Shown piece after piece: positions 5,208 through 52,484 of a stretch of 64,000 bases of DNA (its first letter is position 1; every line of letters begins with the position of its first letter). Location of the stretch: assembly GCF_009866765.1 (NCBI RefSeq), contig NZ_CP019431.1:3224001-3288000 (forward strand). The letters run 5' to 3'. The DNA is from Pseudomonas sp. S35 (GTDB lineage: Bacteria > Pseudomonadota > Gammaproteobacteria > Pseudomonadales > Pseudomonadaceae). A program made the translations under genes and the position numbers. The notes under the pieces were generated by a model. The model did not search any database and was not told the DNA's origin. It saw nothing but the letters and a program-made list of their open reading frames with translations.

Positions 5208-5248
5208 TGGGCTTTCTCGCCAATTCCAACAACAAGAGAGGCAATACC

Positions 5249-8882: not shown

Positions 8883-11134
8883 GCTACAGCGTGGCGGTGC
8901 GGGCATTGTGTGAGTTCACGGCCAAGGTCGGCGACCTGGACCTGCGCTTTACGCCGTCACCCAGCGCCCAGGAAGGCATTGCCGGCCACCGCACCGTGGC
9001 CTCACGCCGCAGTGCGCACTACCAGAATGAAGTGGCCCTGGAAGGCGATTACCAGCAACTGACGGTGCGGGGCAGGGCCGATGGCTACGACCCGGACGCC
9101 AACCGCCTGGAGGAAGTCAAAACCTACCGTGGCGACCTCGATGCCCAACCCGCCAACCACCGGCAATTGCATTGGGCCCAGGTCAAGATGTACGGCTGGC
9201 TGATGTGCCAGAAACTCGGGCTGACGCAAATCGACCTGGCGCTGGTGTATTTCGACATCGTCGGCGAGGGCGAGACCCTGCTCAATCAGCGCTTCCAGGC
9301 GGCCGAGCTGGAAGGGTTCTTCAACCAGCAATGTGCGCTGTTCCTCGGCTGGGCCCGACAGGAGATGCAGCACCGCGAAGCTCGCAATACCGCGGCGCAA
9401 GCCTTGAGCTTTCCCCATACCGACTTTCGCCCCGGCCAACGGTCTTTGGCCGAGTCGGTGTACAAGGCTGTCAGTACCGGCCGCTGCCTGATGGCCCAGG
9501 CGCCGACTGGCATCGGCAAGACCATCGGCACGATTTTCCCACTGCTCAAGGCCCTGGCGCCGCAGCAACTGGACAAGGTGTTTTTCCTCACCGCCAAAAC
9601 CCCGGGCCGCAAACTGGCCCTCGACGCGTCGCAGGTGCTGTTCACCAGCAGCCCCGACCTGCAACTGCGTGTGCTCGAACTGGTGGCGCGGGACAAAGCC
9701 TGCGAACACCTGGACAAGGCCTGCCACGGCGACTCATGCCCGTTGGCCAAGGGTTTTTACGACCGTCTGCCTGCCGCGCGCATGGCTGCGTCGAAGGTTA
9801 GCCTGCTTGACCAGCGCAACCTGCGCGACGTCGCCTTGGCTCACGACGTATGCCCCTATTACCTGAGCCAGGAAATGGCCCGCTGGGCAGACCTGGTGGT
9901 CGCCGACTACAACTATTATTTCGACTTTGGCGCAATGCTCTTTGGCCTGGCCCAGCTCAACCAATGGCGCGCCGCGGTGCTGGTCGACGAAGCCCATAAC
10001 CTGGTGGAACGTGCGCGCTCGATGTACAGCGCCAGCCTCGACCAGTACCGCCTCAAGACCCTGCGCGACACCGCTGCCGAACCGCTGAAAAAACCCTTGC
10101 AGCGCCTGAACCGTGAATGGAACGCCCTGCACAAAGACCAGGTCGCGCCGTACCAAGCCTATGCCTGCAGGCCGGACAAACTGCTGCAGGCCTTGAACCT
10201 GTGCACCAGCGCCCTGGGCGACTACTTCAACGACCACCCCGAAGCCCTCAGCGGCGACTTGCAGGCGTTCTACTTTGAAGCCCTGCAATTTGCCAAGGTC
10301 GCAGAGCTATTCAACGAACACTTCATCTTCGACATCCACAAACGCCAGCTCGGCGCTAAACGCAGCAGCTCAACCCTGTGCCTGCGTAATGTGGTGTCCG
10401 CCGAGTTCATTCGACCCCGATTGACGGCGGCTCGCAGCAGCGTATTGTTTTCTGCCACACTGAGCCCGCGCCACTATTACGCCGACTTGCTCGGCCTGCC
10501 GACAGACACGGCCTGGGTCGATGTGGAATCGCCGTTCAAGGCCGAACAACTGCACGTACGCATCGTCGATGCCATCTCCACACGCTTTGTGCACCGCCAA
10601 GCTTCGCTGGCACCCATTGTCGAGCTGATCGCCCGCCAGTTCGCGCAACAGCCGGGCAACTACCTGGCGTTTTTCTCAAGCTTTGATTACCTGCAACAGG
10701 TGGCCCAAATGCTCGCCGAGCGCCACCCGCACATCGCACTGTGGCAGCAATCGCGGGGCATGGCCGAGGCCGAACGCCAGGCCTTTCTCGACCAATTCAC
10801 CGAACACAGCCAAGGCATCGGCTTTGCCGTGTTGGGCGGCGCGTTTGGTGAAGGCATCGACCTGCCCGGCGCCCGCTTGATCGGTGCGTTCATTGCCACG
10901 TTGGGCTTGCCGCAACTCAACCCGGTCAATGAGCAGATGAAACAGCGCATGGGCGCGATTTTCGGCGCGGGGTACGACTACACCTACCTGTACCCCGGTA
11001 TTCAAAAGGTCGTGCAGGCGGCGGGGAGGGTGATCCGCAGCGAGCACGATCGGGGGGTGGTGGTGTTGATTGATGACCGGTTTGGGGAGGGCCGGGTGCG
11101 GCAGTTGTTGCCGAGGTGGTGGGCAGTTGATTGA
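8879..11134 (+). CDS. PD-(D/E)XK nuclease fused to DinG/XPD-type helicase
   Basis: About 751 residues from TTG 8879 (LSYSVAVRALCEFTAKV...). The N-terminal 170 residues look like a Cas4/RecB-type nuclease module (RGRADGY, then EEVKTYRGD). The rest is a superfamily 2 helicase: Walker A APTGIGKT, a four-cysteine patch fitting an Fe-S cluster (CEHLDKAC, DSCPLAKG, then CPYY), DEAH box VDEAHN and C-terminal motifs GEGIDLPGARL and QAAGRVIRS. The Fe-S/DEAH arrangement is that of the XPD/DinG family, 5'-3' helicases. The start is set by the TTGA overlap with the upstream nuclease; longer upstream readings are shadows within that gene. Confidence 0.85.
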   Translation: MSYSVAVRALCEFTAKVGDLDLRFTPSPSAQEGIAGHRTVASRRSAHYQNEVALEGDYQQLTVRGRADGYDPDANRLEEVKTYRGDLDAQPANHRQLHWAQVKMYGWLMCQKLGLTQIDLALVYFDIVGEGETLLNQRFQAAELEGFFNQQCALFLGWARQEMQHREARNTAAQALSFPHTDFRPGQRSLAESVYKAVSTGRCLMAQAPTGIGKTIGTIFPLLKALAPQQLDKVFFLTAKTPGRKLALDASQVLFTSSPDLQLRVLELVARDKACEHLDKACHGDSCPLAKGFYDRLPAARMAASKVSLLDQRNLRDVALAHDVCPYYLSQEMARWADLVVADYNYYFDFGAMLFGLAQLNQWRAAVLVDEAHNLVERARSMYSASLDQYRLKTLRDTAAEPLKKPLQRLNREWNALHKDQVAPYQAYACRPDKLLQALNLCTSALGDYFNDHPEALSGDLQAFYFEALQFAKVAELFNEHFIFDIHKRQLGAKRSSSTLCLRNVVSAEFIRPRLTAARSSVLFSATLSPRHYYADLLGLPTDTAWVDVESPFKAEQLHVRIVDAISTRFVHRQASLAPIVELIARQFAQQPGNYLAFFSSFDYLQQVAQMLAERHPHIALWQQSRGMAEAERQAFLDQFTEHSQGIGFAVLGGAFGEGIDLPGARLIGAFIATLGLPQLNPVNEQMKQRMGAIFGAGYDYTYLYPGIQKVVQAAGRVIRSEHDRGVVVLIDDRFGEGRVRQLLPRWWAVD

Positions 11135-11241
11135 GTTATTCCTGCCGACTACGCCTTGCTGACCCTTTGCGGCGATATTCAGCAGGCTATGGACTACTTC
11201 GGCCACAAACAGGTCGTGATGGCCAGTCTGCGGCACTGCCG

Positions 11242-12993
11242 TCATTGTCCCATTACCCATACAAGCAGCTTCGAGTAACGGGGGGGGTGGCCGTGTCGTA
11301 TATGGCTGTAATACACCCGTACGATCTCACCCTCCTTGAGGTCACCCACCGCGATCGGAATGAGCAGTTCCTGGCCAGCCGTTTCCGAATCCAGGGTGGT
11401 CGGCACTGTCGTTCTTGATTGGTCACCGATCCAGCGTAATGTCACAGTGTCTCCGGGCTCAGTTTCGGTGAATGGCAGAATGACCATCACCTGTTGCTCG
11501 GTATGAGTGCCTTCAACCCGTGCCTGGGGCAGTGCGCTGGCCGGCTTGCCTACCTGCAATTGCAAGCGCAGCGACTCACGGCTTGAGGGCAGGTCCGTGC
11601 GTACGTAATACAGCTCGGTGAGGAGAGTGTTGAAGCGCTTGACTTGCTCGCCGTCGACCGTGAATTCGAGGATGCGATCCGCCGGGATCGTTACCAGCGT
11701 GTGCTCCTGGATGTGGATCACCGAGCCCCCCACCCACACCAGACGAACCTGGGCCGAGGCGTCCCATCCCTCGGGAGCGACTATGACTACCGTGGCTTTA
11801 GGAACAGCGGGGTCCAGATGGCCTGCTGCGGATTCCTTGACCTGGGGCGCCAGCCATGGGCTGGCAGCCCCGCGCACACTCACCCGAGTCTGCATCGAAA
11901 CAACCACATCGTCGGTTTTTACCCGATGAAGGCTGCAAGACAGCATTGAGACCCCGCCCCCGAGTGCCCTGACTCTTTCATTCGGAATATCGAACTCCAT
12001 AAAGCTATTGGTGCGCTCGACGGTTTTCTCTTCACTGTAGGGCATAAGGACGTTCTCGGCGTCTCGACCGTCCCAGTCCAGGCGTACTCGATCGCCTTTA
12101 TCGAACACCATTGGATCAAGAAACAGTTTGATCTTCTGTGGACCAACCCCGAGCTGTTTCAAGTCGATAACGTCTCCCGGTTGCTCAAGGAAAGGTGCCT
12201 CAAGCAGCCGGGTGCCAAGGTTTACATTTACCCAGTTTAACGGTGACCAATTCGCATCCGATTCGGGGTCGAAAACCGGATAGTTGCCTACCGCGTCAAT
12301 GACCTGCATTGCGATGGGCAGGAACGGATTGCTGCCGGCAGCATGGATGACGCTCTCGATAACCGTCACTTCAAACCCTCTGCCAACCTCCCTGGGTGTC
12401 ACCACATGGCTGACAAGCTGCGATCCCCAGGCGAATCTGCAGGTGTCATATTCGGCCATATTTTCGTAGGGCTGGACATCAAGAATAACCCCTTGCCTGG
12501 CCCTCTTAAGGTCAATCACTGCACCCGCTTCTAGGTCTTCAGGGAGAAAAAATACTAGCCCTTGATGACCCGGCTTTGCCCCGTCCGGGTCTTCATTGCC
12601 GGGGCGGTCAAGCTTGATTCGAAGCCTGGGTTTGTTAGTCTCGGTGGGGCCATTGCCAGGTTCTTCAATGGTGCAGTACGCAGTGGCCCACTCCGGAAGA
12701 ATGTTTTCTTTGGGCATGTTCAGGGTATACACAGGGTCATTTACATTGTCCTCATCGATAATCAGGTAATCCTCTGGCGTCGGGCCGCTCCAGTACAAAA
12801 ATATCTCTGTCTGTAGCGCGAACTTGTGCTGAGGGAAAAGTAACGGCTGGAGATCGTGCTCGACATGCCGCAGACCAATACACCAATCAGGTTCGGTGTC
12901 CTCCTTGATAGGCGTACCCAGATTCTGAAGATACAGCTCAGACTGTCTATCGTCGGCAGTACCTCCGACCGTTTGTTTAGGAGCACGAGGCAT
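11242..12993 (-). CDS. Paralogue P1: repeat-rich beta-sandwich protein, unknown function
   Basis: 583 residues, no signal peptide, no membrane segment. It belongs to a six-member local family. Core signatures: PGHQGLVFFLPEDLEAG, QPYENMAEYD, FAWGSQLVSHVVT, VIDAVGNYP, then IDLKQLG starting further Ig-like units with the pattern GDxVxLxW and FxIPxxxVRA. The repeats suggest three to four tandem beta-sandwich domains. ATG 12993 has GGAGG 8 nt upstream. It is the last gene of a minus-strand run with short gaps (70 nt to P2), so probably an operon. I do not recognise a function; a cell-surface or secreted binding protein is a guess. Confidence 0.8.
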   Translation of the reverse strand: MPRAPKQTVGGTADDRQSELYLQNLGTPIKEDTEPDWCIGLRHVEHDLQPLLFPQHKFALQTEIFLYWSGPTPEDYLIIDEDNVNDPVYTLNMPKENILPEWATAYCTIEEPGNGPTETNKPRLRIKLDRPGNEDPDGAKPGHQGLVFFLPEDLEAGAVIDLKRARQGVILDVQPYENMAEYDTCRFAWGSQLVSHVVTPREVGRGFEVTVIESVIHAAGSNPFLPIAMQVIDAVGNYPVFDPESDANWSPLNWVNVNLGTRLLEAPFLEQPGDVIDLKQLGVGPQKIKLFLDPMVFDKGDRVRLDWDGRDAENVLMPYSEEKTVERTNSFMEFDIPNERVRALGGGVSMLSCSLHRVKTDDVVVSMQTRVSVRGAASPWLAPQVKESAAGHLDPAVPKATVVIVAPEGWDASAQVRLVWVGGSVIHIQEHTLVTIPADRILEFTVDGEQVKRFNTLLTELYYVRTDLPSSRESLRLQLQVGKPASALPQARVEGTHTEQQVMVILPFTETEPGDTVTLRWIGDQSRTTVPTTLDSETAGQELLIPIAVGDLKEGEIVRVYYSHIRHGHPPRYSKLLVWVMGQ

Positions 12994-13063
12994 CGTGAAA
13001 CCTCCACAGTGAAGGGGTTGGAAAATCAATCAGGCAGACCGGCGGTTGGTGTAGAGATCATCT

Positions 13064-14866
13064 TTATCGTATGTCCTCGAACCCGAAAATTCCTCGGCGG
13101 GCAATCTGCAGCGTCACCACACCTGAGTAGCGCTGTGGAACACCGTTATGGTTGACTTCCCAATAAACTTTCACGATGCGATTGAGGTTATCCGATACAT
13201 ATTTGCCCGGTACTTTGATTCGAGCGTCGCCCGGGGTTGAAATATGCATCAGCATCACAATACGGTTAAGTGGGCCGAACCAATGCAAACGAATATGCTG
13301 GCCAACGGGAGGGTTAGGGATGGTGACCCAAACGCCATCCGGTACCAGGTCCGGATCAAGGTGATGACCGGCAACCTTCTCGACTACTGGAGCAATCATT
13401 GCCTCCCAAGGTTCTCCTATCAGCAGGCTTTTGCGCGCAGACTCACCTAGCAGTCGCCCATCAGTCCCATTGACTTCGTAATGCATTTGCGAAGGGCGAC
13501 CCTCAAATCGCTTGATTTGGGCGGCTGGCAGTTCCAGTTCAATGACGTTGTGTTCCGGGCGCTCACCTACGCTGCGGCTGAAACGGTATTCCACGGTGCC
13601 GTCTCGGTCAGGCAAGAGCCAGACCAGCGTGATCAGGTCCCACGGTTTCCAACTGGTCTGGTAAGGCACGTAGGCTTGCCCATCTACTGGGACTGCTCGT
13701 ATTTCAGCGAAAGGCATTGTGTCGATCACATAAGGCTCTGGCCACTGAACCGATGCCCCTTGGACACTCACGTAGACCGATTGGGAATACATCGTCGTTG
13801 AGCCGATATATTTGTGCAGCGTGTAATACAGCTTGGCATGACCTTGGGCCAGCCCTTCCATAAACGCAGGCGGGATCTGGAAGTCATAGATCGCGTTAAC
13901 CCTGTCCACTGGGCGCTCTTCGCTGTGTATGACGATGTTTCCTTGAGCATCGGTAGCCTTGAAAACAAACTCGAGGGTATCTCTCGTCTCGAAGTAATCC
14001 GCTGACGCAAACACCGAAACCGTGACGGACTTACCTGCCAGCTTTTCCAGATCGATGACTCCGGTTTGCGGGTCAACCTCTGCGCTGTAAGGTTCTCTCA
14101 GGACGTCGCGTTGTGCGTACACCAGCACCTTGCTGGCTGCAGACCAGCGTTCAGCCGGGTCAGTAAAATTACCGGTGTGCCCACGTACCTGGAGCCTCAC
14201 ATTCAGTTCGAGGCCGTCGCGAGCGGCCATGACTTTCGCGTAAGACACAGTGAGGTTGATCTCACGGTTCAGGTCTGCCTCGGTGACCAAATGGGTGACT
14301 TGTTGATCCCCCCAGCACAGTAGGACTTGGTCCCCCGGAGCCGCGTAGGAGTAGGGCATCAGCGTGATTTCGATATTCTGGCGAGCCCTGGTTTCACTGA
14401 CGCCGTTGACCAGCACATCGTCAGGTAGATAGATGACCAGCCCTTGGTGTCCGGGCCTGGAGGGGTCGGGGTCATGGCCACCCGGACGGTTAAAGTCGAC
14501 CCGTAGGCGCAGGGGGAGGGTAGACGCGCCTGAGCTGTTAATCCGGCACACGAGCGGGTCTATCCATTCAGGCCTGATACTGGCTGCAGGGAGGAGGATT
14601 GGCAGCCATTCACGCTGGGTGTCTGCGGCCATGACAAAGGTATGAGCGACAGGGCGAATAGGGTCGTTGCTGAACAGTTCGAGCAATTGACCGGGGGAAG
14701 TGCGCGCGCCGGTCTTCACGTAGACAACCTGCGGCGTTTCGATATTTCTGAGGCCCAGGTTGCCGTCGACACCGACATCACCAGCTGCGGCCGGGTGGAG
14801 CCTTGGGATGTAAAGGTCACCTAGTTCAGCAGTGAGGCCAGGGGGAGAGGTAGCGACGTTGGACAT
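13064..14866 (-). CDS. Paralogue P2: repeat-rich beta-sandwich protein, unknown function
   Basis: 600 residues, no signal peptide. It shares the family core (RPGHQGLVIYLPDDV, TLMPYSYAAPGD, LCWGDQQVTHLVTEADL, LQVRGHTGNF, then VIDLEKLAGK) and repeated units with FQIPPAFMEGLAQG and LYYTLHKY. The C-terminus (VPQRYSGVVTLQIARRG) aligns by eye with the end of P1. ATG 14866 has AAGGAG about 8 nt upstream. It lies 56 nt after the end of P3 in transcription order, which supports co-transcription. Confidence 0.8.
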   Translation of the reverse strand: MSNVATSPPGLTAELGDLYIPRLHPAAAGDVGVDGNLGLRNIETPQVVYVKTGARTSPGQLLELFSNDPIRPVAHTFVMAADTQREWLPILLPAASIRPEWIDPLVCRINSSGASTLPLRLRVDFNRPGGHDPDPSRPGHQGLVIYLPDDVLVNGVSETRARQNIEITLMPYSYAAPGDQVLLCWGDQQVTHLVTEADLNREINLTVSYAKVMAARDGLELNVRLQVRGHTGNFTDPAERWSAASKVLVYAQRDVLREPYSAEVDPQTGVIDLEKLAGKSVTVSVFASADYFETRDTLEFVFKATDAQGNIVIHSEERPVDRVNAIYDFQIPPAFMEGLAQGHAKLYYTLHKYIGSTTMYSQSVYVSVQGASVQWPEPYVIDTMPFAEIRAVPVDGQAYVPYQTSWKPWDLITLVWLLPDRDGTVEYRFSRSVGERPEHNVIELELPAAQIKRFEGRPSQMHYEVNGTDGRLLGESARKSLLIGEPWEAMIAPVVEKVAGHHLDPDLVPDGVWVTIPNPPVGQHIRLHWFGPLNRIVMLMHISTPGDARIKVPGKYVSDNLNRIVKVYWEVNHNGVPQRYSGVVTLQIARRGIFGFEDIR

Positions 14867-14922
14867 GGTGGTGACTCCTTTCTGTGAATCAACGGGGAAT
14901 ACAATAAAAGGCAAAACTTGGG

Positions 14923-17134
14923 TTAGAGGCGCCTGAAACGTATATCGTCAATTTCGTAGTCGTTACCATCGCTAGTAGCTATATGACTTTGAATATAAAG
15001 CGTCAGGGTCGTGCTGTTGGCTGTCAGCGTTCCTGATAAGGTCCGCCAGTTGACCAGGTCTGAAAGTTCGGTTGCAGCAGTCAACGTTCCTTGTGAGGTT
15101 CTTAAAGACAGTGAAGGCCTAACGTAACGTCCGTCAAATCTTCTAGCCCTTATGCTGAATGTGTAACGCTCTCCCGGTTGTAGATTTCTAAAGACCTGAG
15201 CAAAAACAACACCACTTTTATCTCCTGCGGGATAAGTATAGTTGTGAAATACTGTATTTCCGCTATATACCCTGAACTGAATGTCAAGCATGTTATTAAG
15301 GGCTGGCCCTGGTATCCAGCCGTTCAAGTTATTGTTGCTAAAATCGGTAAGATGATCACGCCCAGGCCGAATAAATAACACGAAGAGCGGCGAGAAACGT
15401 CTGGGCGCGTTGGCCCTGGCCAGGCTGTATCTAATCCTGACCGATCCGTTCAGGTTTTCGCTGACGAAGCGGCGTTCGACAGGAATAAGTAGCGTTTTTC
15501 CTGCCTGGGCAGCACTTATAGTGATCTGCACGCGCGTGCTTACGGCGTTGCCTTCCCAATCCAGGGTGATAACGTCATTTAAAAGGCTATCGATAGGCGG
15601 AATAGTCACGGTTACGTGGGTGCCAATCTTCAGATAGTTCCCCCATCTTGCTTCAACCTCTACCGGAGGTAGGCTGCTCGCATACCTGCCCACTATTAAA
15701 AACAGGCGCTGTGATGCGCGATGGGGCTGAAGGTCGATACGTTCGTAATACACATCAACCGGCAGGGTATCAAAACGTCTTACTTGCGCATTCGGAATGG
15801 TAAATGAAAGTTCTTTATTGTCAGGAATGGGGCCGAGGAAAAATTCTTCAGTGAAGTTGACCGAGTGCGCAGCCCATACAATTCTAATTTTTGTAGCGGA
15901 CGTCCAACCGTCTTGCGCACGAAACTTCATTGTGGCATTTGAATTCGGATTCAACTCTCCATCTGGCGCTTCTACGATACTGGGTGCCGACCAGTCGATG
16001 ACGTCGCCGTTAACCCTGATACGTACTTTTCTTGATGGCAACCATTCATTGTCTCTGAACTTGTAGAGATTGTAGTACATGATGGCGATGCCACTGGCTA
16101 TTGCACCGACCAATTCGTTGGGTACATCAAAGTCTTCAATGAAGTTTGTAATATTGACATCCCTGTGCTCGCTGTGAAAAAAAAGGCACGTTTTGAATAT
16201 CTCGCCCCTCCCATTCAAAATCAATTTTGTCGCCCGCCTCGAAAAAGTCGTTATCGATAAATATCTGCACGGTTTGCGCGGCATCACCTAACTCGTCAAG
16301 TTCAACGATTTCCCCAGCCTGCTTAAGAAACGGCGGGCGTGGCCGCAAGAGCCCCAGGTTGACTTCTACCCGCTGTATTTCCGACCAGTTCGACTTGGAA
16401 TTGGGATCAGCAGGGTAGTTGCCGCCCACATCCTTGATTTGCATGGCCACCGGCATGTTCACGTAGTGAGGGTTCTCTTTGATGCGCTCGGGAGATATGA
16501 ACATTTCAAATGAGCGGCGCACCTCAGCAGCCGTCACCACGTGTGCGATGATTATGGCGCCCCAGGCGATGAGGCAGGTATCCCACACTTCCATATTTTC
16601 CCACGGGTGGATTTCCAGCACGACACCTCGATCTGCCCTTGCCATATCTACGTGGCTGCCGGCTTCCAGGTCAGGCGGCAGAAAGAACACCAGGCCTTGA
16701 TTCCCGTCGGCATCGGGGTTCGGGTCTGGATAACCAGGGCGGCTGCGTTTCACCCTGAGCTTTAACGGCTTGGTTTTAGATGAGTTGCCGCTGGGGCGTC
16801 GGATAAGGCAATAGACTTCAGCCCACTCCGGCAGGATCTGCTCTTTATTCACCGTCAGGCTGAAAAACCGGTTACCCAGGTTTTCCGGTTGGATGACGAG
16901 ATAGTCCACCGGGGCTTCAGGGTTGTTCCAAATCAGGTAGATCTCGGTGTCCAAAACAATCTCTGGGAACGCGAGGAGCAGCACCTCCAGGTTATGTTCG
17001 ACATGCCGTGCGCCAAGGGCACCGTCAGACTCGGTATCCCCTTCAAGGGGAGGTTCTATACCGCTGATCAAGACCGGACCCAGGTCGTAGTCATTGGGGG
17101 GGCTGCCGGTTTTTGTTTTGGTTTTACTGGACAT
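14923..17134 (-). pseudogene. Paralogue P3 with C-terminal lectin-like module, frameshifted in a T8 run
   Basis: Two reading frames together match the family. The 5' part (start 17134, GGAGG 7 nt upstream) encodes the N-terminal region and core (GNQGLVFFLPPDLEAG, IHPWENMEVWD) and stops at 16136. The 3' part continues from FIEDFDVPNELVGA to 14923. They join at a run of eight A (eight T in the coding strand) at 16177-16184. Reading seven T restores NVPFFHSEHRDVN and a product of about 736 residues. The last 140 residues (DFSNNNLNGW ... YEIDDIRFRRL) resemble a CBM4/9-type carbohydrate-binding jelly roll, and this part is visibly more A+T rich. Real inactivation, phase variation and a sequencing error are all possible. 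Confidence 0.75.
16177..16184. other. Homopolymer run (A8/T8) at the P3 frameshift
   Basis: Eight consecutive A on the plus strand. One base fewer would fuse the two P3 frames exactly, with no loss of family residues. Such a run could slip at replication or transcription, or be miscounted in sequencing. Confidence 0.7.
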
Positions 17135-17186
17135 GGTCGGACCTCCAAGAGGGGCAATGTTGCTCATACAAACCGCGTCACGTTCA

Positions 17187-18671
17187 TTACCTGCCGCCTG
17201 GTGCACCAATCTGTACTTCCTGGCGTAACGATTCGTTTAGTGAGGTGCTGCGCGCCAGAATGTTTTCTGGCTCATACACGTAATAGAGTTCAGGCTTGGT
17301 GCCGTTGAACCTCAAGAGGTCTTCATGTTCAATCAAGCGTCTGATCGGCACATTTTCAGGTACCTGTCCCACTTCGAAAAGGTCGTCGTAGAGGATAAGG
17401 TCATGGCTACCCGGTACCACGTAACGCATGAGCAACATGATCTTGTCAGTTGGCCTGCGCCATGCGTACCAAGGAATTTCGACGGCGGCGCCACCTGTGG
17501 GTATAGGGTTGACGACATGGGAGGTGTATCGCACAAAAAAAGGTGGCAGCAATCGGATGATTGCGTCCTGAACCGCAGCGGAGGCGATTTTTGAGTAACC
17601 CACTATAGTGAGCCCTTGAAACAAGATAAAACTGATCTCCACTTTGCCACCGGCCACCGCACGCACTTTGTCATGGGGCACGAAGAAGTCATGGGGCCTG
17701 CCGGCCGCTTTGATCGGGATGTATTCCTCGTGCAGTACCACGCCCCCCTGCTTCGGGTAGCCTCGGTACGTCACAAAATACGTGTAGCCGAGAGGGCCCT
17801 CCCACGGATAAGTGAAACACTGCATATGCAACGGCCCGCCGTTAAGTGACTCAAGGTCGATCAAGCCTGGAAAGTTCTGGGTCGCGAAGATAGGTGCGGC
17901 AAAATTGGCGCTGCCCACGTCTACCAGCACCGGGATGTTGCGTGAGCGGGGGGTGGATACGTTGCGGACCGCGTCCACAACCTGGAAGCTCACCAAGCGA
18001 TTGGTGCCATTACCGATCGAGATAATCTGATCGCGGTTGATTTTTATCTCGGTCGACAGGCCTACACCAGCCACCTGCTTGGAGGGAATTAACAAGTTAC
18101 CAAACTGGCATTCAATGCGATCAAGTCGATGCATATCCGGGTAAGGCTCAAAGATGAGGGTTACCCCTCGCCCTGCTTGAATTTCCCTGATTTCTGTATC
18201 GGATATGCTGAATTTGAGTGCGGAATGACCTGGGATAGTATGTTCTTTGTCCTCGCCGGCTGGGAGGGTTCGTTTGACCATCAGGGTCAACGGATAAGAA
18301 AGGTCATTGGACGGGCCACCGCCATAAAAAACCTTGTAGCCCAGTATCAGATCGCCGTCGGGGAGGTCACTGTCTGAAATAGCAAAAGAGAAGCTATTGC
18401 GGTCTTCTTCCCCGGGCTCCAGGGTTTTCTCTGCAAGGACCTTCATCCCCACGATGGCAAGCACCTGGATTTTGTCCCCGGGCTTGGCCGGCCAATTCTT
18501 ATCTACCGTCACGGTCAGGCCTCTGGTCAGCAACCAGAGAGCAATACCACCGTCATAGCCCTCAAACGCCGGCGACATGCCAGGTACCCGTAGCGTGTCA
18601 AGGAACTTGGGCTTGATCGGCGACGCTTTTTTGCTTTTGGTGGGGGCCGGCTTGCTGTTTTTGGTAGGCAT
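17187..18671 (-). CDS. Paralogue P4: repeat-rich beta-sandwich protein, unknown function
   Basis: 494 residues, no signal peptide. After a Lys/Pro-rich N-terminal tail (PTKNSKPAPTKSKKASPIKP) comes a block shared with P5 (FEGYDGGIALWLL, PGDKIQVLAIVG), then the family core (PGHSALKFSISD, FEPYPDMHRLDRIE, FQVVDAVRNVSTPRSR, IDLESLNG). It ends with TSLNESLRQEVQIG, close to the end of P5. ATG 18671 has a GGAG site about 7 nt upstream. It is the first gene of the P4-P3-P2-P1 run and has the shared upstream motif at 18763-18796. Confidence 0.8.
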   Translation of the reverse strand: MPTKNSKPAPTKSKKASPIKPKFLDTLRVPGMSPAFEGYDGGIALWLLTRGLTVTVDKNWPAKPGDKIQVLAIVGMKVLAEKTLEPGEEDRNSFSFAISDSDLPDGDLILGYKVFYGGGPSNDLSYPLTLMVKRTLPAGEDKEHTIPGHSALKFSISDTEIREIQAGRGVTLIFEPYPDMHRLDRIECQFGNLLIPSKQVAGVGLSTEIKINRDQIISIGNGTNRLVSFQVVDAVRNVSTPRSRNIPVLVDVGSANFAAPIFATQNFPGLIDLESLNGGPLHMQCFTYPWEGPLGYTYFVTYRGYPKQGGVVLHEEYIPIKAAGRPHDFFVPHDKVRAVAGGKVEISFILFQGLTIVGYSKIASAAVQDAIIRLLPPFFVRYTSHVVNPIPTGGAAVEIPWYAWRRPTDKIMLLMRYVVPGSHDLILYDDLFEVGQVPENVPIRRLIEHEDLLRFNGTKPELYYVYEPENILARSTSLNESLRQEVQIGAPGGR

Positions 18672-18762
18672 GGCTTTCTCCAGGTAGAAAGTTGTCACGC
18701 GTCACAGGAAATGTTCCTGCGCTTGGGGCGTATCAGACACCGTTAAATACGGGCTTGCCTAC

Positions 18763-18796
18763 TGTCATAACTAACAGGTTGCGACAGGCGGTCTGC
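18763..18796 (-). promoter_or_regulatory. Shared family motif upstream of P4
   Basis: Read toward P4 the site is CTGTCGCAACCTGT followed by TAGTTATGACAGT. It matches the sites upstream of P5 and P6 (CTGTCGC-ACCTGTGAATTCTGACAGT type) and lies about 90-125 nt before the P4 start. The conserved spacing and half-sites CTGT/ACAG suggest a binding site for one regulator acting on the whole cluster (inference). Confidence 0.55.
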
Positions 18797-18811
18797 GCGC
18801 AAGCACGGCGG

Positions 18812-20266
18812 TCAGGAACCTTGCAGGATTTGCACTCGGCGGCGCAGCGATTCGTTTAAATCCATAGAGCGAGCCTTCATAGAAGCGGACTTGGATTCGT
18901 ACACGAAATACAGGTCAGGGGCATACCCCAAGAACTGCTCAATATCCTTACCGTTGAGCGCCCACTGAACCGGCTGCCCATCGCAGAACGTTCCAACTGT
19001 CTTCGTAACGCTATAAAGGATTACTTCGTTGAGTGACTTCACGTAACGCAGGATCAACGTGAGGTTGTCCGTAGGTTTTCGCCAGTCGTACCAGGGAATA
19101 TTCACGACCATGGATTTTTCTATGATCGCAATATCTTCAGGATATTTTTCGAAGTAGGGCGCTTCCAATCGAATGACCGGTCCCACTACCTCGGCGAATG
19201 TCTTCTTTGATATCTGGTTAACCAGATCGTCAGCTCGGATTAGCTCATAGCTGGTCTCCGCCCATCCTCCTGCTGCAGCACGGACTTTGCTGTAGGGCAC
19301 ATCGTGATATGTCGCGGTGCCGGCTCTAGTGATCGTTTCGATTCGTCGATGCACCACCTCCCCCCCGAGCGGCGGGTAGGCCTTGAAGGTGATCACATAC
19401 CAATCACCCGTCCTGCCGATGGGCGCAGGGGTGTACATTCCAACCGTCAAGTCGGCGCCATTTAGCCTTTCGAGGTCGATATAACCCGGCCGATCGTCAG
19501 ACTGAATGAATGGGCCGTCCCGTTGCGCGCTGTCGAGTGCTACCAACACGCGCAAGTTCCTCGACCTTGGCGTGGAGGCGTTGCCGACGTGGTCGACAAC
19601 GTAGAACCCCACCAGCAAGCCATCGCTATCACCTGCTTTCGTAATCTGGGCGTGATTAATGAGAATAAGGGTTGCCTGGCCGACGCCTGCGACTTGTTGA
19701 ACGATCGTCAGGCCGCCCCATTGGAAGTAAATGCGGTCCATGGGATGCATGTTCGGGTAGGGCTGGATAATTACGCTGACGCCTTTAGCCGCATCGGGCG
19801 GATAAACTTCCAGAGTCGAAAGCGAGAACTTCAGTTCCGAATGACCCGGTTCGAGCTGATCAATATCTTCACCCGCAGGCAGGTCGGTTTTTACTAGCAC
19901 ACTCAGGGGATAGGATGCCTCGTAGTCGTCTTTGTTGCCTTTGAAGTTCACCACGTAACCTAAGCGTAACTCTCCGTCCGGTAGTTTTTTTCGTGGGATG
20001 GAAAAAAAATAACTCTCGTTTTCTTCTTCTCTGGGCTGCACCCGCTTTAAGGCCAATAACGTCATGCTGGGCATCAAGACGATGCTAATGATATCGCCGA
20101 GGTTGGCAAGCCAGTTGTTGTCTACTCGGACCGTCAGGCCAGAGACCATTAACCACGCTGGAATTCCTCCGTCGTAACCGTCAACATTGTCGGTCATACC
20201 TGGAATAGACAAACGAGGAAGCTGATTGGGCTGCCCTGGGGAGGTTTTAGCGCTTTCAGTGCTCAT
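18812..20266 (-). CDS. Paralogue P5: repeat-rich beta-sandwich protein, unknown function
   Basis: 484 residues, no signal peptide, closest by eye to P4 throughout (VDGYDGGIPAWLM, PGHSELKFSLS, IQPYPNMHPMDRI, YVVDHVGNASTPRSR, IDLERLNGADL, and the ending MDLNESLRRRVQI). ATG 20266 has AGGAGA 8 nt upstream. It is separated from P4 by 140 nt that carry the P4 copy of the shared motif, so P5 and the P4-P1 run have separate promoters. It is divergent from P6. Confidence 0.8.
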   Translation of the reverse strand: MSTESAKTSPGQPNQLPRLSIPGMTDNVDGYDGGIPAWLMVSGLTVRVDNNWLANLGDIISIVLMPSMTLLALKRVQPREEENESYFFSIPRKKLPDGELRLGYVVNFKGNKDDYEASYPLSVLVKTDLPAGEDIDQLEPGHSELKFSLSTLEVYPPDAAKGVSVIIQPYPNMHPMDRIYFQWGGLTIVQQVAGVGQATLILINHAQITKAGDSDGLLVGFYVVDHVGNASTPRSRNLRVLVALDSAQRDGPFIQSDDRPGYIDLERLNGADLTVGMYTPAPIGRTGDWYVITFKAYPPLGGEVVHRRIETITRAGTATYHDVPYSKVRAAAGGWAETSYELIRADDLVNQISKKTFAEVVGPVIRLEAPYFEKYPEDIAIIEKSMVVNIPWYDWRKPTDNLTLILRYVKSLNEVILYSVTKTVGTFCDGQPVQWALNGKDIEQFLGYAPDLYFVYESKSASMKARSMDLNESLRRRVQILQGS

Positions 20267-20368
20267 GCCCTGTTTCTCCTTGACACATGCTTGAACAACG
20301 TAGGCGTCTACCGTTGGTGCCGGATGAAGTGCCTTAGGCGGTATCAGATACCAACGTTTTCGCGGGGG

Positions 20369-20389
20369 CAACTGTCAGAATTCACAGGT
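20369..20389 (-). promoter_or_regulatory. Shared family motif upstream of P5 (left arm of an inverted repeat)
   Basis: This 21-nt sequence is the exact reverse complement of 20461-20481. Read toward P5 it is ACCTGTGAATTCTGACAGTT, about 100 nt before the P5 start, and is followed like the P4 site by a TCTGATAC block. Adjacent CTGTCG also matches the P4 site. Probably an operator or activator site. Confidence 0.6.
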
Positions 20390-20460
20390 GGCGACAGACG
20401 GTCACGGGTGTGTGCAACAACCTTGTCGAGGTTGAGCCCATTGAGCTACCAATGGTCGTT

Positions 20461-20481
20461 ACCTGTGAATTCTGACAGTTG
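20461..20481 (+). promoter_or_regulatory. Shared family motif upstream of P6 (right arm of the inverted repeat)
   Basis: Identical to the P5 site in opposite orientation, so the motif points toward each divergent gene. It ends 76 nt before the P6 start. With the P4 site this gives three family promoters carrying the same element. Confidence 0.6.
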
Positions 20482-20557
20482 CCAACCCTCTGTCGCTGGG
20501 TGTTTGATTTCCGTCAAGTTCATGCCCAATTTGCATGGCGAAGCCGAGGGAACCAGC

Positions 20558-23166
20558 ATGGCCAAGCAACACGCTTCCCCCCCCAGTCCGCTCTCCGAGC
20601 TGCCAGCGGTGGACATTCCGCTGATGCAACCGCCGATTGAAGGCGATCTGGAGAAGGCCGACGGCGGTATTGGGGTGTCGCATACCATGCGCCCCTTGGT
20701 AGTACATATCGACAGACCAGATAGCACGCCTGAGGGGACTCACTTCGAGTTGATCTGGGGTGGCGGCACTCCGGTTGCGTTCAACCTGATCCGGGAGGGC
20801 GACGAGAACCTGGCCCGTATCCCCTTCACCGTGCCTTCCGACAGCATTCGCGAGGCCTGGGCAGATCCCGTGTATGTTCAAGTTATTCGCAGCAACGCAA
20901 ACCCATCCCGAACCAGACCCTTGCGTTTGAGGGTGAACCTGCAACATCCGGGCGGACAAGACCCCAATCCCGCCCCCGGAAATCAAGGCCTGGTATTTGA
21001 GTTGCCGGATGATGTAAGGCTTGGTGGGGTCAGTGCGGATCGGGCCAGGCAGGGTGTGGAGGTGATCGTCAGGCATTGGCTGAACATGGCCGCCTATGAC
21101 CTGCTCATTCTGGTCTGGGGCTCGGTGCGAATCGAGCGGTTGATCCAGCCCTCCGAGGTAGGCCTGGATATCAAATGCATATTGGACGAGGAGGCGATCA
21201 AGGAAGCCGGGGACAGCGACTTGCTGCCGGTCGCGTTCCAGGTCCGGGGACCGACCGGCAATTACCCCGATCCCTGGGCGCCCTGGTCGACTACAGCGCT
21301 GGTTTCGGTTTACCTGGAGACTGACCGCGTGGACGCGCCCTGGGTGCAAACACCTGAAACCGACCGAGAAATCGATCTCGAAATACTGGGCACTCGCGAC
21401 GTACAAATCGGCATGACTGTCGGGGGCGCCGATGCTCGTGTGTACAGCCATATTTTTCTCTACTGGAACGGCGTAAATGCCGAGGGCAGTTCGGTTTCTT
21501 ACTTTGAGGATCGGCAGTTGGCAGGCGCCAAGGGCTATTTTTTTAATATCAACAATGCCTTGGTGAGCGCGATCGCTCAAGGCAGTGTGGTGGTGTATTA
21601 CGAGTTAAAAGGCGCTGGCGTGCCTGACAAGCGCTCGCATAACCGTTACCTCACGGTTATCGGCGAGATCGTCAGATGGCCTGCACCGACTGTAGACCAG
21701 GCCCTGGGAGATGATCTGGACCCAGGCTTGCCACTGATTACCATCCGCTTCCCGGCGCAAGCCAGTTGGGCCAGCACGGACCGGGTGCAAGTGACTATCC
21801 TGGCCAGCGATACCGACGGCACGGTCGACTATACGGCAGGTCGGTTAGTTGGCCAGGTTACCCCCGACGGGCAGATGACGTTCGATGTGGCAGGTAACGA
21901 GCTCAGGCGTTTTGACGGGCGTCTCATTGACGTGTTCTACAGCGTGACCCGGGACAACGAACTGCCTCAGGAGTCGCTGCGCCGGGTGTATCAGGTTCAT
22001 ATGCCGGTTGAGCTGCCTGTTCCTAAATTGATCCAGGCCACGGGCTCGGGTGCTTCGGTGAGTCTTGCATCGATGAATGCGCAAACTGGCGCCACTGTAT
22101 CGGTGGAATACAAACCGATGTACACCACCGACAGCATCAAGGTCACGATGGTGGGAAGCGCCGGTGCTGGATCGCCGAACATTGACGCCAAACCAGGTTT
22201 GGCGAGTGGCGTGGTCATGTTTGATATTCCCAAAGCGGCGATTGCGGCAAATATTGGCAATGCCAACAAGACCTTCACCCTCGAATACGAGGTGACGCGC
22301 GAGGGCGTTAAACGGGGATCGACAAAGTTGACAGTAACGGTGACACCAATACCCCAGGCGGAGTTGCTAAAGACCGTTATCCAAATCAATGAGGCGAACC
22401 AAACTACCAGGGTATTGGATCTGTCGACCGGTACTGCTAACAGGAAACTGCGGGTCGGCACCTGGCCGTTCATTGCTACCGATTCTCCGGTCTGGATTGA
22501 GTTCAAAGGTTTTAAAACTGGAGGGGGGCACACAACCTAAAACATTGGAATGGTGGTGCGTCCAAAGTGAATTCGACCTGGTTCAACCAAGGGTGGTGGG
22601 AGAGTGGGATCAGTTATGCGTCGTACTTGAAAGAGTTGGGCGACAATACGAAACTGACATTGCATTTCAAAGCCGCTTTGGGCACCGGCATAACTGAGGC
22701 TAATGCCATTACCTTCCCGGTAGTCGAGTACACCGTCAAAAGTAAGCCTCTGCCAATTGATTATACAAATTTCGACAATAAAAATATGAATGGTTGGACA
22801 AGGGGACCGAAAGGTCTTTACCTTACGATGACGGCCAACAGCAATGGATATCACTTGTGGAGTGGCAACGGCCAAATTCCAGGGGATGGGATTTCGCTTT
22901 ATAAAAGCGTCGCCCTTGTTGGAGGTACAACTTACTTATTTGAGGCAAGTCTTAACGGTAATTATTACCATAGCCCATCAGGCGCATATTTGGTGGCTGG
23001 CAATCAACGCAGTCCAACGCAGTGGTTCACTAATGAAAACAAGATCCTTGCCTTTCGTTTTACGGCCAGTACTACTGGCAGCACTCAAATCTCGGTAAAT
23101 ACTATAGCGACATCAGCGGGGTATCAGCAAATCACCATACTATGGCTGCGGGTGACGAAAGCTTAA
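20558..23166 (+). pseudogene. Paralogue P6 with C-terminal lectin-like module, frameshifted in a G6 run
   Basis: The largest family member, divergent from the rest. ATG 20558 (MAKQHASPPSPL) has GAGGG 7 nt upstream. Family core: GNQGLVFELPDDVRLGG, RHWLNMAAYDLL, VWGSVRIERLI, FQVRGPTGNYP, IDLEILG. The frame stops at 22540, but the next frame continues without a new start through HNLKHWNGGASKVNSTWFNQGWW to 23166. They join at GGAGGGGGG (six G at 22523-22528); one extra G restores about 869 residues. The 3' part ends in a jelly-roll-like segment (NFDNKNMNGWTRGP ...) similar to the P3 tail. This is the second homopolymer frameshift in the family. Confidence 0.72.
22523..22528. other. Homopolymer run (G6) at the P6 frameshift
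   Basis: Six G in GGAGGGGGGC. Seven G (or four) would join the two P6 frames. It lies before the C-terminal lectin-like module, as in P3. Confidence 0.65.
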
Positions 23167-23221
23167 TTGATTTGACGCTGGGAGTTTTAGCCGAATACTC
23201 GCGAAACTCAACGAGGAATAA

Positions 23222-23416
23222 ATGAGAACAGAATACGAGGCAGATATTTTAAAAGTTAATCTGCCCTATCCGGTGCGTCCTCAGCGATCAATAGGGGGCG
23301 CTGCATTACTACATCGGTGCCAAGGGGCAGCCCCCCCCAAAAATTCAGTATCAATCACACCACTTCCAGATACGAACTATGAACCGCCCGCGCCAACTCC
23401 CGCACCGTTTCGATGA
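23222..23416 (+). CDS. Short ORF after P6, doubtful gene or remnant
   Basis: 64 residues with a good Shine-Dalgarno (GAGG, about 6 nt before ATG), 55 nt after P6. The product begins MRTEYEADILKVNLPYPVRP and becomes Pro-rich after a run of eight C at 23331-23338. The end overlaps the 3' end of the convergent alpha-E gene, which is unusual. I do not recognise it. It may be a remnant cut by a C-run frameshift, or chance. Confidence 0.3.
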   Translation: MRTEYEADILKVNLPYPVRPQRSIGGAALLHRCQGAAPPKNSVSITPLPDTNYEPPAPTPAPFR

Positions 23417-26743: not shown

Positions 26744-26884
26744 ATGCCAGAACAACCGGAAGAGGCATTGGAAGAGGAACTCAACGACCCAGGTAACGAA
26801 GACCCGGGCTCGTTGATGGATGATGCCGAAGTGCCGCTTATCGATCCAGATGAGCCAGCAGATACCAGCCCCAAGCGCGTTTAA
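26744..26884 (+). CDS. Acidic mini-protein, copy A
   Basis: 46 residues, strongly acidic, with core NDPGNEDPGSLMDDAEVPLI that recurs in copy B at 28728. AGGAG lies about 7 nt before ATG 26744, 23 nt after the membrane protein stop, so the two are probably co-transcribed. The paralogue in the same context and the good ribosome binding site make it a real gene despite its size. Function unknown. Confidence 0.65.
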   Translation: MPEQPEEALEEELNDPGNEDPGSLMDDAEVPLIDPDEPADTSPKRV

Positions 26885-28251
26885 TGAGTGCTTGCTGGTG
26901 GTGGGCCGCTTAGGAACTCACGGATGTGGCCATCCGCTGTGTGTGAACTTATCTTTTCATCCAGCCTCATTGAGGCTTTTATGAGTTCTGGTCGGGGCAG
27001 GTTATCCGGCTCATTGGGTGAGAAGAGGACGTGTGTATCCATGCTATGCGGCACGCCCCCCACCACTTTGCGCTCCATTTGCTTTCCTAGAGGGGTTCCC
27101 CCCAATCTCTCCGCTTCTAATACGAGCGCTCGGGCCAAAGGATATTTAAATTGCTGCATATCGTAATACGGAACGCTTTTCTTAATTGACAAATATTCCC
27201 CTAGTGATTGATCACCACTCGCCATGCCGCAAGATGATAATTTCATGAGGTCGTGAAAAATCGGCTGCGGCACATGCTTTACAACAATGACCTTCACCTC
27301 AGAATCACCAGCGCCCAGGAATGTTTTTTGATGAACCATGCCGCGACCGCTATCAGAAAAAGTATAGAGCGAGGCTTTGGAATAAGCTTTGTCACTGACC
27401 GCTATAGAGTAATTTGGGTGAAAGATATTTCCAACATCGTCAATGAATCGACGCTTTCTGCTTAGGTTTGGTAAGTTCCGAGCAACAATTAGATAAGTGG
27501 TATTTTTTTTGTCGCTGGCGGTCTCGTTCAACGTGTTGCGGATAAATAGATGTGATGCTGTGACTGGGGTATCGGAGCTTATATAGGCCATGTGAAAGTT
27601 GCTATTCTTGTCCAGTGACAAATTATAACTGTCCAGAAGTTTTCTGATGTCGTTATCGAACCGTTTTTCAATCAGATCTAAATCTTTCTTTTCGATGGGC
27701 AGGTAGCCAATTGCGCCCTCACCAAAGCCAAGGTTATGTGCGCTCACGCCCTCAAACCCCAATTCTTTGAGCGCATTGACCCTGTCAGGCAGTTGCTGGC
27801 GGGGGCTCGCTAGCAGGTCCATTTCTTCAATCAGCATGATGTCCTTACGTGGAAAATTATACTGTGTGCATAGGTTATTCATGGTTGTCTTCAGGTCTTC
27901 CAACTTCAAAACACCTACTGGCGCAACGATGAATAAAGGGTCTCGCAAATCGCTGAGTTGATGAACGCTCTCGGAAGTGGCGTGATGACGTGCAGCCAGC
28001 GCGTTACCTGGACGGTCTGTGTCAATTGGAAGAATGCTGACCCGACAATTTTGCTCCAGGGCGATATTGGCAATTTTGTTCGCTAGCTGGGCATCGCCCC
28101 CGCTCCCGTCCGCTAGATCGTAAATAGGATTGATCACGATAAGGTCACGACCGCTGAGGTTTCGTTGCGAGAGGCTGCTTATATTCTGGGATGAAAGAGT
28201 TGGATCTATAGGATATGTCTGATTATCAATGACTGTCTTTGTATTTATCAT
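26881..28251 (-). CDS. Unrecognised 456-residue protein, possible GT-B glycosyltransferase-like effector
   Basis: ATG 28251 with AAGGAG 10 nt upstream; a TTG at 28278 would put the Shine-Dalgarno inside the gene. Two half-domains are suggested: an N-terminal Rossmann-like part (LIVINPIYDLADGSGGDAQLANKIANIA) and a C-terminal part with KVIVVKHVPQPIFHDLMKL and SGDQSLGEYLSIKKSVPYYD, which recalls the nucleotide-sugar site of GT-B transferases. No signal peptide or membrane span. It is visibly richer in A+T than its neighbours and is flanked by duplicated sequence, so it was probably acquired. The assignment is tentative; another Rossmann enzyme is possible. Confidence 0.6.
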   Translation of the reverse strand: MINTKTVIDNQTYPIDPTLSSQNISSLSQRNLSGRDLIVINPIYDLADGSGGDAQLANKIANIALEQNCRVSILPIDTDRPGNALAARHHATSESVHQLSDLRDPLFIVAPVGVLKLEDLKTTMNNLCTQYNFPRKDIMLIEEMDLLASPRQQLPDRVNALKELGFEGVSAHNLGFGEGAIGYLPIEKKDLDLIEKRFDNDIRKLLDSYNLSLDKNSNFHMAYISSDTPVTASHLFIRNTLNETASDKKNTTYLIVARNLPNLSRKRRFIDDVGNIFHPNYSIAVSDKAYSKASLYTFSDSGRGMVHQKTFLGAGDSEVKVIVVKHVPQPIFHDLMKLSSCGMASGDQSLGEYLSIKKSVPYYDMQQFKYPLARALVLEAERLGGTPLGKQMERKVVGGVPHSMDTHVLFSPNEPDNLPRPELIKASMRLDEKISSHTADGHIREFLSGPPPASTH

Positions 28252-28343
28252 TTGCCGTGCTCTCCTTAAAAGTGCCAATGATTAAGTTTTTTGCCTGAAT
28301 CACTCAAATGCAAATATTTAACAATGTACTACGCACCTGCCTG

Positions 28344-49129: not shown

Positions 49130-49157
49130 ATTTAACATAATATACATTATGCGAACC
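49130..49157 (-). other. dif: Chromosomal dif site, used as inovirus integration site
   Basis: 28-nt site: XerD-type arm ATTTAACATAA (49130-49140), centre TATACA (49141-49146), XerC-type arm TTATGCGAACC (49147-49157). By recollection it matches the reverse complement of E. coli dif at 27 of 28 positions. XerC/XerD act here to resolve chromosome dimers. The prophage sequence begins at the XerC arm (identity with the phage copy at 57510 onward starts at 49146). Confidence 0.85.
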
Positions 49158-49187
49158 GTCCTATACGGAGCTGGGGGGCTCTGTCGG

Positions 49188-49700: not shown

Positions 49701-49798
49701 AATCCATTACCCTTTATAGTGAATATATCGACGGCTAAGGATGAGCTTACCCTAGGTCATTGGGTGAGCTACCCTCCTCCATTTTTAATAACAATTAA

Positions 49799-51080: not shown

Positions 51081-51107
51081 GGGGTGATTTCCGGCTGATT
51101 GGTCAAT

Positions 51108-52168: not shown

Positions 52169-52171
52169 AAA

Positions 52172-52462: not shown

Positions 52463-52484
52463 CTCAAATTTTTAGCGGCTAAAA

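Follow-up and report, generated by a model that had tools for sequence, protein, structure and literature searches.

Six paralogous immunoglobulin-like stalk proteins in Pseudomonas sp. S35 and a widespread family of candidate stalk-plus-tip binding proteins

The chromosome of Pseudomonas sp. S35 (contig NZ_CP019431.1, 6.61 Mb) carries a cluster of large proteins of unassigned function. The cluster lies in the 64,000-nucleotide stretch that was analysed here, bases 3224001-3288000, referred to below as the window. A database protein search places the closest named protein relatives in P. poae and other Pseudomonas. Positions 11242-23166 hold six paralogous loci, called g1 to g6 in map order (Table 1). 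The initial annotation, made from the sequence alone, had described six paralogous genes here, five on one strand and the sixth divergent. This arrangement is borne out by the open reading frames (ORFs) and by BLAST, which connects all 15 gene pairs at E values of 1e-5 or better. BLAST identity is 44% between g4 and g5; g1 is 42% identical to the N-terminal piece of g3 and 34% identical to its C-terminal piece, and the other pairs share about 22-32%. The genes g1 to g5 are spaced by about 50-145 base pairs (bp), with starts inferred from relatives; the start of g1, giving 583 amino acids (aa), was taken from database protein P0032.

Table 1. Features of the cluster (positions in the window)
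Feature	Position	Strand	Length (aa)	Description
g1	11242..12993	-	583	intact ORF; aligns across the whole five-domain core, without an extra tip
g2	13064..14866	-	600	intact ORF, database protein P0001; five tandem immunoglobulin-like domains
g3 C-terminal piece	14923..16287	-		ORF with the rest of D3, D4, D5 and the tip
g3 tip	14923..15357	-		predicted EclA-C-like / CBM_4_9 carbohydrate-binding domain
g3 N-terminal piece	16136..17134	-		D1 to part of D3; start inferred at MSSKTK
g4	17187..18671	-	494	intact ORF; D1-D4 only
g5	18812..20266	-	484	intact ORF; D1-D4 only
g5-g6 intergenic stretch	20267..20521			divergent, from gene layout
g6 N-terminal piece	20522..22540	+		five-domain core and part of a sixth unit; start inferred
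g6 C-terminal piece	22567..23166	+		remainder of the sixth unit and the tip

The sequence motifs that had been listed as common to the six proteins are real, but they are loose. The first occurs as PGHQGLVFFLP, PGHQGLVIYLP, DGNQGLVFFLP, PGHSALKFSIS, PGHSELKFSLS and PGNQGLVFELP, and the 'WG' motif reads 'FG' in g4. The six had also been described as genes for proteins of 480-870 residues. In this assembly four of the six genes (g1, g2, g4 and g5) are intact, and g3 and g6 are each split in two. The two ORFs of g3 (16136-17209 and 14923-16287) overlap at 16136-16287 but differ in frame, and a run of eight T lies close to where they meet. In g6, the junction between the ORFs (20291-22540 and 22567-23166) lies near a run of six G (at about 22520-22570). 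Both frame losses sit upstream of the tip domain described below, near a homopolymer run. Relatives have uninterrupted counterparts of the broken genes; those of g3, 739-741 aa long, are found in three other regions (L061-L063), and the part of g3 at 14923-16107 can be aligned to them. One assembly is insufficient to tell a fixed break, an assembly error and switching by slippage apart.

From the gene layout, both promoters of g5 and g6 are likely to be located in the stretch between these divergent genes. A promoter scan of 11100-23360 is at chance level (7 matches vs 7.7 expected, with 0 of the 7 in that stretch), as is a terminator scan of the cluster, and the window has no transfer RNA or Rfam match. 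As for the proposed local amplification, the paralogues are indeed clustered, but the cluster is old: the same layout occurs in three other genomes (G281, G101 and G338), and two further paralogues lie elsewhere in the same genome, one of 610 aa (L003) and a short one of 258 aa (L009).

The part that the six proteins share is predicted to be a stalk. An AlphaFold model of g2, based on 32 sequences, consists of five immunoglobulin (Ig)-like beta-sandwiches in tandem, D1 to D5, at approximately residues 46-123, 149-249, 270-369, 396-483 and 511-588, with a mean local confidence (pLDDT) of 87.3 and a predicted template modelling score (pTM) of 0.78. This prediction confirms the repeated beta-sandwich domains that had been expected. 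The description of a core followed by tandem Ig-like units has to be revised, in that the core is the Ig-like units itself, five of them in this model. D3, D4 and D5 are mutual repeats (hhalign probability 94-96%), D2 is more distant (85% with D5), and D1 reaches at most 52%. The genes g4 and g5 end after the fourth unit, to judge from the part of the profile that their counterparts cover (for g4, positions 5-491 of about 600).

The best Foldseek match of the g2 model in the PDB is the tandem-Ig region of the bacterial adhesin MpAFP, with many generic Ig matches behind it. Fold searches with this model and with that of a g3 relative return generic Ig-like matches, including complement MG domains, factor XIII and adhesins. 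Because these matches are generic, they fix the fold and do not assign a function. The model of the g3 relative, which has a low pTM of 0.40, shows beta-sandwich units in its N-terminal part; among the 50 matches listed for this low-scoring model, none is a lectin match for the tip.

The view that the core belongs to no family of known function has held up. Neither Pfam nor NCBIfam has a model matching the stalk core, and a PDB sequence search with the core profile reaches an E value of 0.51 at best. Where databases show a name for family members, it is only 'hypothetical' or 'uncharacterized' protein. In a literature search, no paper was recognised as treating this core among the matches listed, judged by titles and abstract beginnings.

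Matches to the stalk profile occur in 270 of 398 genomes of the genus, among them this genome; the counts here and in the wider draws rest on the first three candidates scored per genome (the first six in the draw from the order). In the draw from the order, 2 of 194 genomes match (this genome and one other Pseudomonas); in that from the phylum, 7 of 398 match (this genome, five other Pseudomonas and one weak match in another family); and in that from the class, the single match among 369 genomes is this genome. The family is largely Pseudomonas-specific and nearly absent elsewhere in these genome draws. Two adjacent members are found on a plasmid of Yersinia frederiksenii (L040, 12859-18420), and a fecal contig without annotation, labelled Bacteriophage sp., codes for a distant relative (25% identity). 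The length of members ranges between about 250 and 2,800 residues.

Few genomes share the six-gene layout. Hits below 1e-180 occur in five others of the genus, and in three of these, the ones named above, the layout itself was inspected. When 38 drawn genomes, this one included, were searched with g2, a match at 1e-60 or better was found here only. A short relative of about 240-310 aa, corresponding roughly to domains 1-2 (for example L009, 1396-2172), is present in 23 of 24 complete or near-complete Pseudomonas genomes among the matches listed, at one per genome among those matches and once with two internal stops. It may be the ancestral member of the family.

Comparison with G281 and G101 gives ratios of nonsynonymous to synonymous substitution rates (Ka/Ks) of 0.11-0.23 for the genes and pieces compared (g1 0.19-0.23, g2 0.14-0.20, g4 0.15-0.22), with no internal stop. 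The synonymous rate (Ks) is 0.31-0.68, and for the C-terminal piece of g3 it is 1.0-2.2, which is near saturation. The flanking Alpha-E and ATP-grasp genes have a Ka/Ks of 0.02 and a Ks of 0.35-0.37 against G281. The cluster proteins are maintained, yet they are changing at least about tenfold faster than these two flanking genes. Purifying selection, together with a gene order that is kept in three genomes, excludes chance ORFs.

The longer members of the family carry a C-terminal tip beyond the stalk. A scan of 37 members at E 0.01 identified the C-terminal modules Big_3_5 (8), RCC1 (8), Big_2 (7), Big_6 (5), Big_13 (2), CBM_4_9 (2) and a YncE-type beta-propeller (1). The RCC1 region of one member of 1340 aa matches BLIP-II (E 1e-13). 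In the window, the C-terminal piece of g3 matches CBM_4_9 (PF02018) with 32.4 bits, above the gathering cut-off of 25.9. The tip of g3 aligns over the whole domain (residues 6-142) to PDB entry 6yf6_A, deposited as a galactose-binding lectin, with an E value of 1.8e-16, and the intact relative P0054 matches the same entry (E 4.3e-16). From its length of 144 residues and the fitting numbering in the available text of PMC11875179, we infer that 6yf6_A is the C-terminal domain of EclA, a lectin of Enterobacter cloacae.

According to that available text, the C-terminal domain of EclA (EclA-C) binds L-fucose, Lewis A and H type II, and its calcium is held by Ile180, Thr181, Ser269, Gly271 and Asp273 (PMC11875179). 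The same text already reports, with data not shown, relatives of this domain in Pseudomonas proteins of unknown function that are annotated as 'carbohydrate-binding protein' (PMC11875179). With the positions given there, g3 is identical to EclA-C at Thr181, Ser269, Gly271 and Asp273, as well as at the contact residue Tyr218. Four of the five calcium/fucose ligands are therefore identical, and the fifth, Ile180, which is probably a main-chain ligand, is replaced by Tyr. In an alignment of 19 relatives (A5), 12 rows carry the tip, and the positions of Thr181, Gly271, an Asn and Asp273 are invariant in all 12, while the sugar contacts vary, with Ser at S269 in 4 of the 12 and Tyr at Y218 in 5. 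As 29 of the 146 tip positions are invariant, all three metal positions would be so by chance in about 0.8% of cases, in a test that was framed after the fact.

The simplest reading is that tips of the g3 type keep the metal site and change the sugar pocket. The prediction for the g3 tip is a domain of the EclA-C type that binds sugar in a calcium-dependent way, although the variation at the sugar contacts means that its sugar need not be fucose. In EclA the N-terminal domain is of the LecA type (available text of PMC11875179), whereas the g3 tip stands on an Ig stalk. A LecA (PA-IL) domain was not found in g3: its N-terminal piece matches nothing in Pfam up to E 1, and its C-terminal piece passes the cut-off for CBM_4_9 only. 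The tip of g6 would be of a related, though less certain, type; the match to CBM_4_9 at residues 67-173 of the piece is weak (21.4 bits, below the same cut-off), and that to 6yf6 has an E value of 0.3.

Different tips are found on near-identical stalks. The first 490 residues of g6 are 84-87% identical among this genome, G281 and two copies in G101, the core of the window g6 itself sharing 85-87% with the other three. The G281 counterpart (L061:13391-16165) has an intimin-like end (PDB 1f00, E 3.6e-11). In G101, the two tandem copies of g6 have cores that are 97% identical and ends that differ, one being joined by BLAST to g3-type tips and the other having no Pfam match. The end of the window g6 is 47% identical over about 180 residues to that of its G338 counterpart, where the cores are only 54% identical. 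To compare tips and cores across the family, 102 of 148 core ORFs were kept, those that were cut or had an incomplete core being dropped, and the 84 proteins with tails of at least 60 aa fall into 22 tip clusters by BLAST. Of the pairs with cores at least 80% identical, which are non-independent, 8 of 15 have tips of no detectable similarity. Conversely, tips up to 73% identical are found on cores less than 40% identical. The initial annotation had proposed binding proteins with diversified ends under selection for variety, and this idea is well supported by the findings that tips differ on near-identical stalks and that the recognised ones are binding modules (EclA-C lectin, intimin and the BLIP-II/RCC1 propeller).

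The stalk and the tip need not be part of one protein. In 11 regions, a family gene is followed by an Ig-plus-tip gene of about 300-380 aa (one is truncated, at 113 aa). For 10 of these 11, the module recurs in L069 and L090 as the fused end of a single long protein, and the five preceding family genes that were compared align to the rest of these long proteins. The split and fused arrangements indicate that stalk and tip can come as separate polypeptides. That the downstream genes of about 308 aa are spare tip cassettes was tested and dropped in favour of gene splitting, the same module being fused in two loci.

Neighbouring genes were surveyed in 63 regions, comprising 60 Pseudomonas regions from the strongest profile hits and L040-L042 (L043 was left out), so that the rates below are those of strong members. 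The most recurrent neighbour is a pertactin-type autotransporter, present in 27 of the 63 regions at a median distance of 84 bp and convergent with the nearest family gene in 21. PF03797 was matched in 7 of the first 92 neighbours scanned, and the other autotransporters were linked to these by BLAST. Of 24 complete or near-complete genomes, 15 have an autotransporter at most 10 kb away from a family gene, where random shifts predict 1.2 and, over 2000 of them, reach 6 at most. This test drew on the hits listed, 150 for the autotransporter and the 93 strongest for the core; its genomes come from the set in which the linkage was first seen, and it is not independent of the discovery. In a tree of the barrel domain, which carries long-branch warnings, all 26 family-linked Pseudomonas autotransporters fall in one supported clade, together with 2 of 20 sampled elsewhere in four genomes (both from G018); two Yersinia autotransporters fall outside. 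On the Y. frederiksenii plasmid, two autotransporter genes of a different clade lie 0.8 and 7.7 kb beyond the family members. The association of the autotransporter clade with the family is a specific partnership in many genomes.

A second type of linkage was seen in five regions (L093, L095, L096, L099 and L101), where a family gene lies 116-140 bp downstream of a lapD-type gene on the same strand, and a lapG-type gene precedes lapD. Pfam confirms all five pairs (Peptidase_C93, PF06035, for lapG and LapD_MoxY_N, PF16448, for lapD). LapD and LapG control the release of giant surface adhesins. The 12 genomes that were searched for these genes were hand-picked, five for the pair already seen (G213, G240, G005, G348 and G219) and the remainder for a giant repeat protein or an autotransporter, or, in the case of G338 and this genome, for a cluster of the window type. 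Each of the first five holds a second lapG-lapD pair elsewhere, and the other seven hold one, which makes the copy next to the family gene an additional one. The single pair of this genome is far from the cluster. In five regions (L091, L095, L099, L111 and L114), a family gene lies 68-998 bp from a giant repeat protein that looks LapA-like by eye.

Other neighbours recur as well. A more distant Ig-tandem family of about 650 aa, related to the stalk by profile comparison (probability 99.4%), stands beside family genes in 22 of the 63 regions. In 13 regions, the neighbours are proteins made of two similar halves, mostly 430-560 aa long, with an N-terminus that is hydrophobic by eye (L098:4479-6065, L072:9981-11594 and relatives) and a motif, also by eye, around RYxxTxxxCxxxxPAxxCxGVL. 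The two that were scanned have no Pfam or NCBIfam match, and the one searched against the PDB has a best E value of 0.058; they may resemble halovibrin. Statements below on the listed neighbour families refer to 25 of the 80 families of neighbours.

Elsewhere in the window, type 1 secretion genes (HlyD-type and outer-membrane efflux) and a 489-aa protein with RTX repeats are encoded at 2554-6673, and an ORF of the size of an ABC protein at 782-2557. The type 1 secretion genes were set aside as an exporter for the cluster; two unrelated genes intervene. A 465-aa ORF at 26881-28278 on the minus strand has no Pfam match at 1e-5. A tandem repeat with an offset of 8,364 bp occupies about 49146-57509 and continues from 57510. 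The 300 nucleotides compared are identical, three ORFs of equal length recur at this offset, and the first copy encodes a secretin and a Zot-type protein. The repeat looks like a tandem filamentous prophage of the Pf/CTX-like kind.

It is rather probable that the family consists of modular binding proteins, lectin- or adhesin-like, built from a stalk and a tip, with the tip exchanged by recombination on a stalk that is kept. The stalk of four or five Ig-like beta-sandwiches would serve as a scaffold, and the C-terminal tip of the longer members, be it a lectin-type jelly roll, an intimin-like end or a propeller of the RCC1 or YncE type, would bind. Recombination would swap the tips and retain the stalk, so that the target could be altered without altering the scaffold. 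The tipless g1, g2, g4 and g5 may cooperate with tip-bearing members as partner or scaffold subunits. The proteins would be extracellular and act in adhesion, by binding glycans or the surfaces of hosts or competitors, and the linked autotransporters or Lap-type genes may assist in the genomes that have them. This interpretation is supported by the predicted fold of g2, the homology of tips to binding modules, the different tips on near-identical stalks, and selection. A more ambitious version is speculative and, on balance, doubtful: a polymorphic recognition system that spans the genus, in which lectin, intimin-like and propeller tips would be interchangeable and export Sec-independent, the autotransporter clade or a second LapG/LapD may be the surface partner, and homopolymer slippage perhaps switches the display of the tip.

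Several observations weigh against the stalk-plus-tip interpretation. Firstly, tip and core are in part co-inherited, since related tips are commoner on closer cores: they were found in 7 of 15 pairs with cores at least 80% identical, 31 of 50 at 60-80%, 199 of 497 at 40-60% and 292 of 2924 below 40%. Alike tips on unlike cores may reflect slow change of the tip, not transfer, and some tips that BLAST separates as unrelated may be distant relatives of one fold. Between the end of the window g6 itself and the first G101 end there is a weak alignment (40%, counting the sixth unit). Secondly, the only two tip-bearing genes of the window, g3 and g6, are the two broken ones; if these breaks are neither assembly errors nor switchable, the strain may show no tip at all.

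Thirdly, the location at the surface is indirect. No signal peptide was seen in 59 ORFs by hydropathy and inspection, some starts being uncertain, and on this basis the initial annotation, which had noted their lack, is followed. The 37 scanned members have no RTX (HemolysinCabind) or membrane-barrel family at E 0.01. With no signal peptide, RTX or barrel seen, surface location rests on analogy and linkage. The linkage also has gaps: 9 of the 24 genomes have no autotransporter within 10 kb, and neither an autotransporter nor a lapG-lapD pair is adjacent to the window cluster. The surface role that had been suggested is plausible from what a survey of neighbourhoods across Pseudomonas, also proposed at the outset, finds in other genomes, but not from the neighbours of the cluster itself. 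LecA-type lectins also lack a Sec signal and are nevertheless found outside cells.

The lack of a visible export signal invites another explanation, namely that the proteins are intracellular or injected, with the Ig stalk as a carrier for a contractile injection-like machine or for release by lysis and the tip acting in or on the target cell. The 59 ORFs without a signal peptide and the variable C-terminal domains, which include RCC1 propellers, would suit this arrangement, as would the fact that neither a type 1 transporter nor an injection gene is named among the listed neighbour families, which include three ABC proteins of unspecified kind. Against it, the recognised tips are binding modules of an extracellular type, and the genes linked to the family elsewhere are cell-surface autotransporters and the adhesin-controlling lapG-lapD pair. 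Injection or lysis release is therefore considered unlikely.

The broken genes raise the question of whether the cluster is a decaying array of paralogues, a relic that is being lost and no longer functions in this strain. Besides the interruption of two of the six genes, the cluster has a lower G+C content, 0.49-0.60 per kb, compared with 0.61-0.64 in the left flank and 0.56-0.64 in the right flank. Decay is nevertheless quite improbable in view of the low Ka/Ks without internal stops reported above (with the Ks of the C-terminal piece of g3 near saturation) and of the gene order conserved in three genomes.

Different ends on a kept scaffold also recall polymorphic toxins such as the contact-dependent inhibition (CDI) and Rhs systems, for which the available text of PMC3482391 describes recombination of cassettes. 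The tips would then be toxic payloads with immunity partners, and small genes of about 120 aa lie 345-680 bp from family genes in 7 of the 63 regions (L064, L074, L075, L078, L079, L111 and L119); they belong to DUF6124 where scanned, and the cluster of small genes was assigned to it by matching entries. Toxins and the present family share a kept N-terminal scaffold with differing C-terminal ends, but the recognised ends of the family are lectin, intimin and propeller binding modules. No toxin family is among the 24 families matched by the 37 members, and no known immunity family is among the listed neighbour families; toxin folds of a kind not yet described, or an immunity role of the DUF6124 genes, would escape such a comparison. 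A toxin system is for these reasons very unlikely, and the suggestion that the cluster might be toxin-associated or contact-dependent has found no backing. That the proteins are phage-derived fibres or anti-phage factors can practically be dismissed: phage tail proteins often have tandem Ig-like folds, as matches in BFVD show, and the Bacteriophage sp. contig encodes its distant relative, but PHROGs and PADLOC have no match for 8 proteins or pieces, a scan of IMG/VR with one peptide pattern confirmed no relative, and none of the listed neighbour families is a phage family.

Among known systems, intimin and invasin embody the same architectural idea of an Ig stalk with a lectin-like end. A C-terminus like D2-D3 of intimin is present in some relatives (L061:13391-16165), though not in the window genes, where the tip of g6 is different. 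Unlike intimin and invasin, the 37 members have no outer-membrane barrel family, and no signal peptide was seen. Tandem bacterial Ig-like domains are also common to the family and to giant type 1-secreted Ig-repeat adhesins such as MpAFP and SiiE; LapA and LapF are adhesins of this kind. The members of the present family are far smaller, the 37 scanned have no RTX, and no type 1 transporter is named among the listed neighbour families. For the whole proteins, membership of the EclA, intimin or RTX-adhesin groups fails, because a defining feature of each was looked for and not found. The family is real, widespread and uncharacterised, and is best filed with stalk-plus-tip adhesins or lectins.

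A large family that neither Pfam nor NCBIfam models, and that about two thirds of the sampled Pseudomonas genomes carry, thereby gains a testable function. The tips supply concrete ligands to test, such as calcium-dependent glycan binding for g3. Should the proteins be extracellular, their export without a signal peptide becomes a question of secretion, with the autotransporters and lapG-lapD pairs as candidate partners. Exchange of tips on a constant stalk, if true, would be a way for plant and soil Pseudomonas to change their attachment targets.

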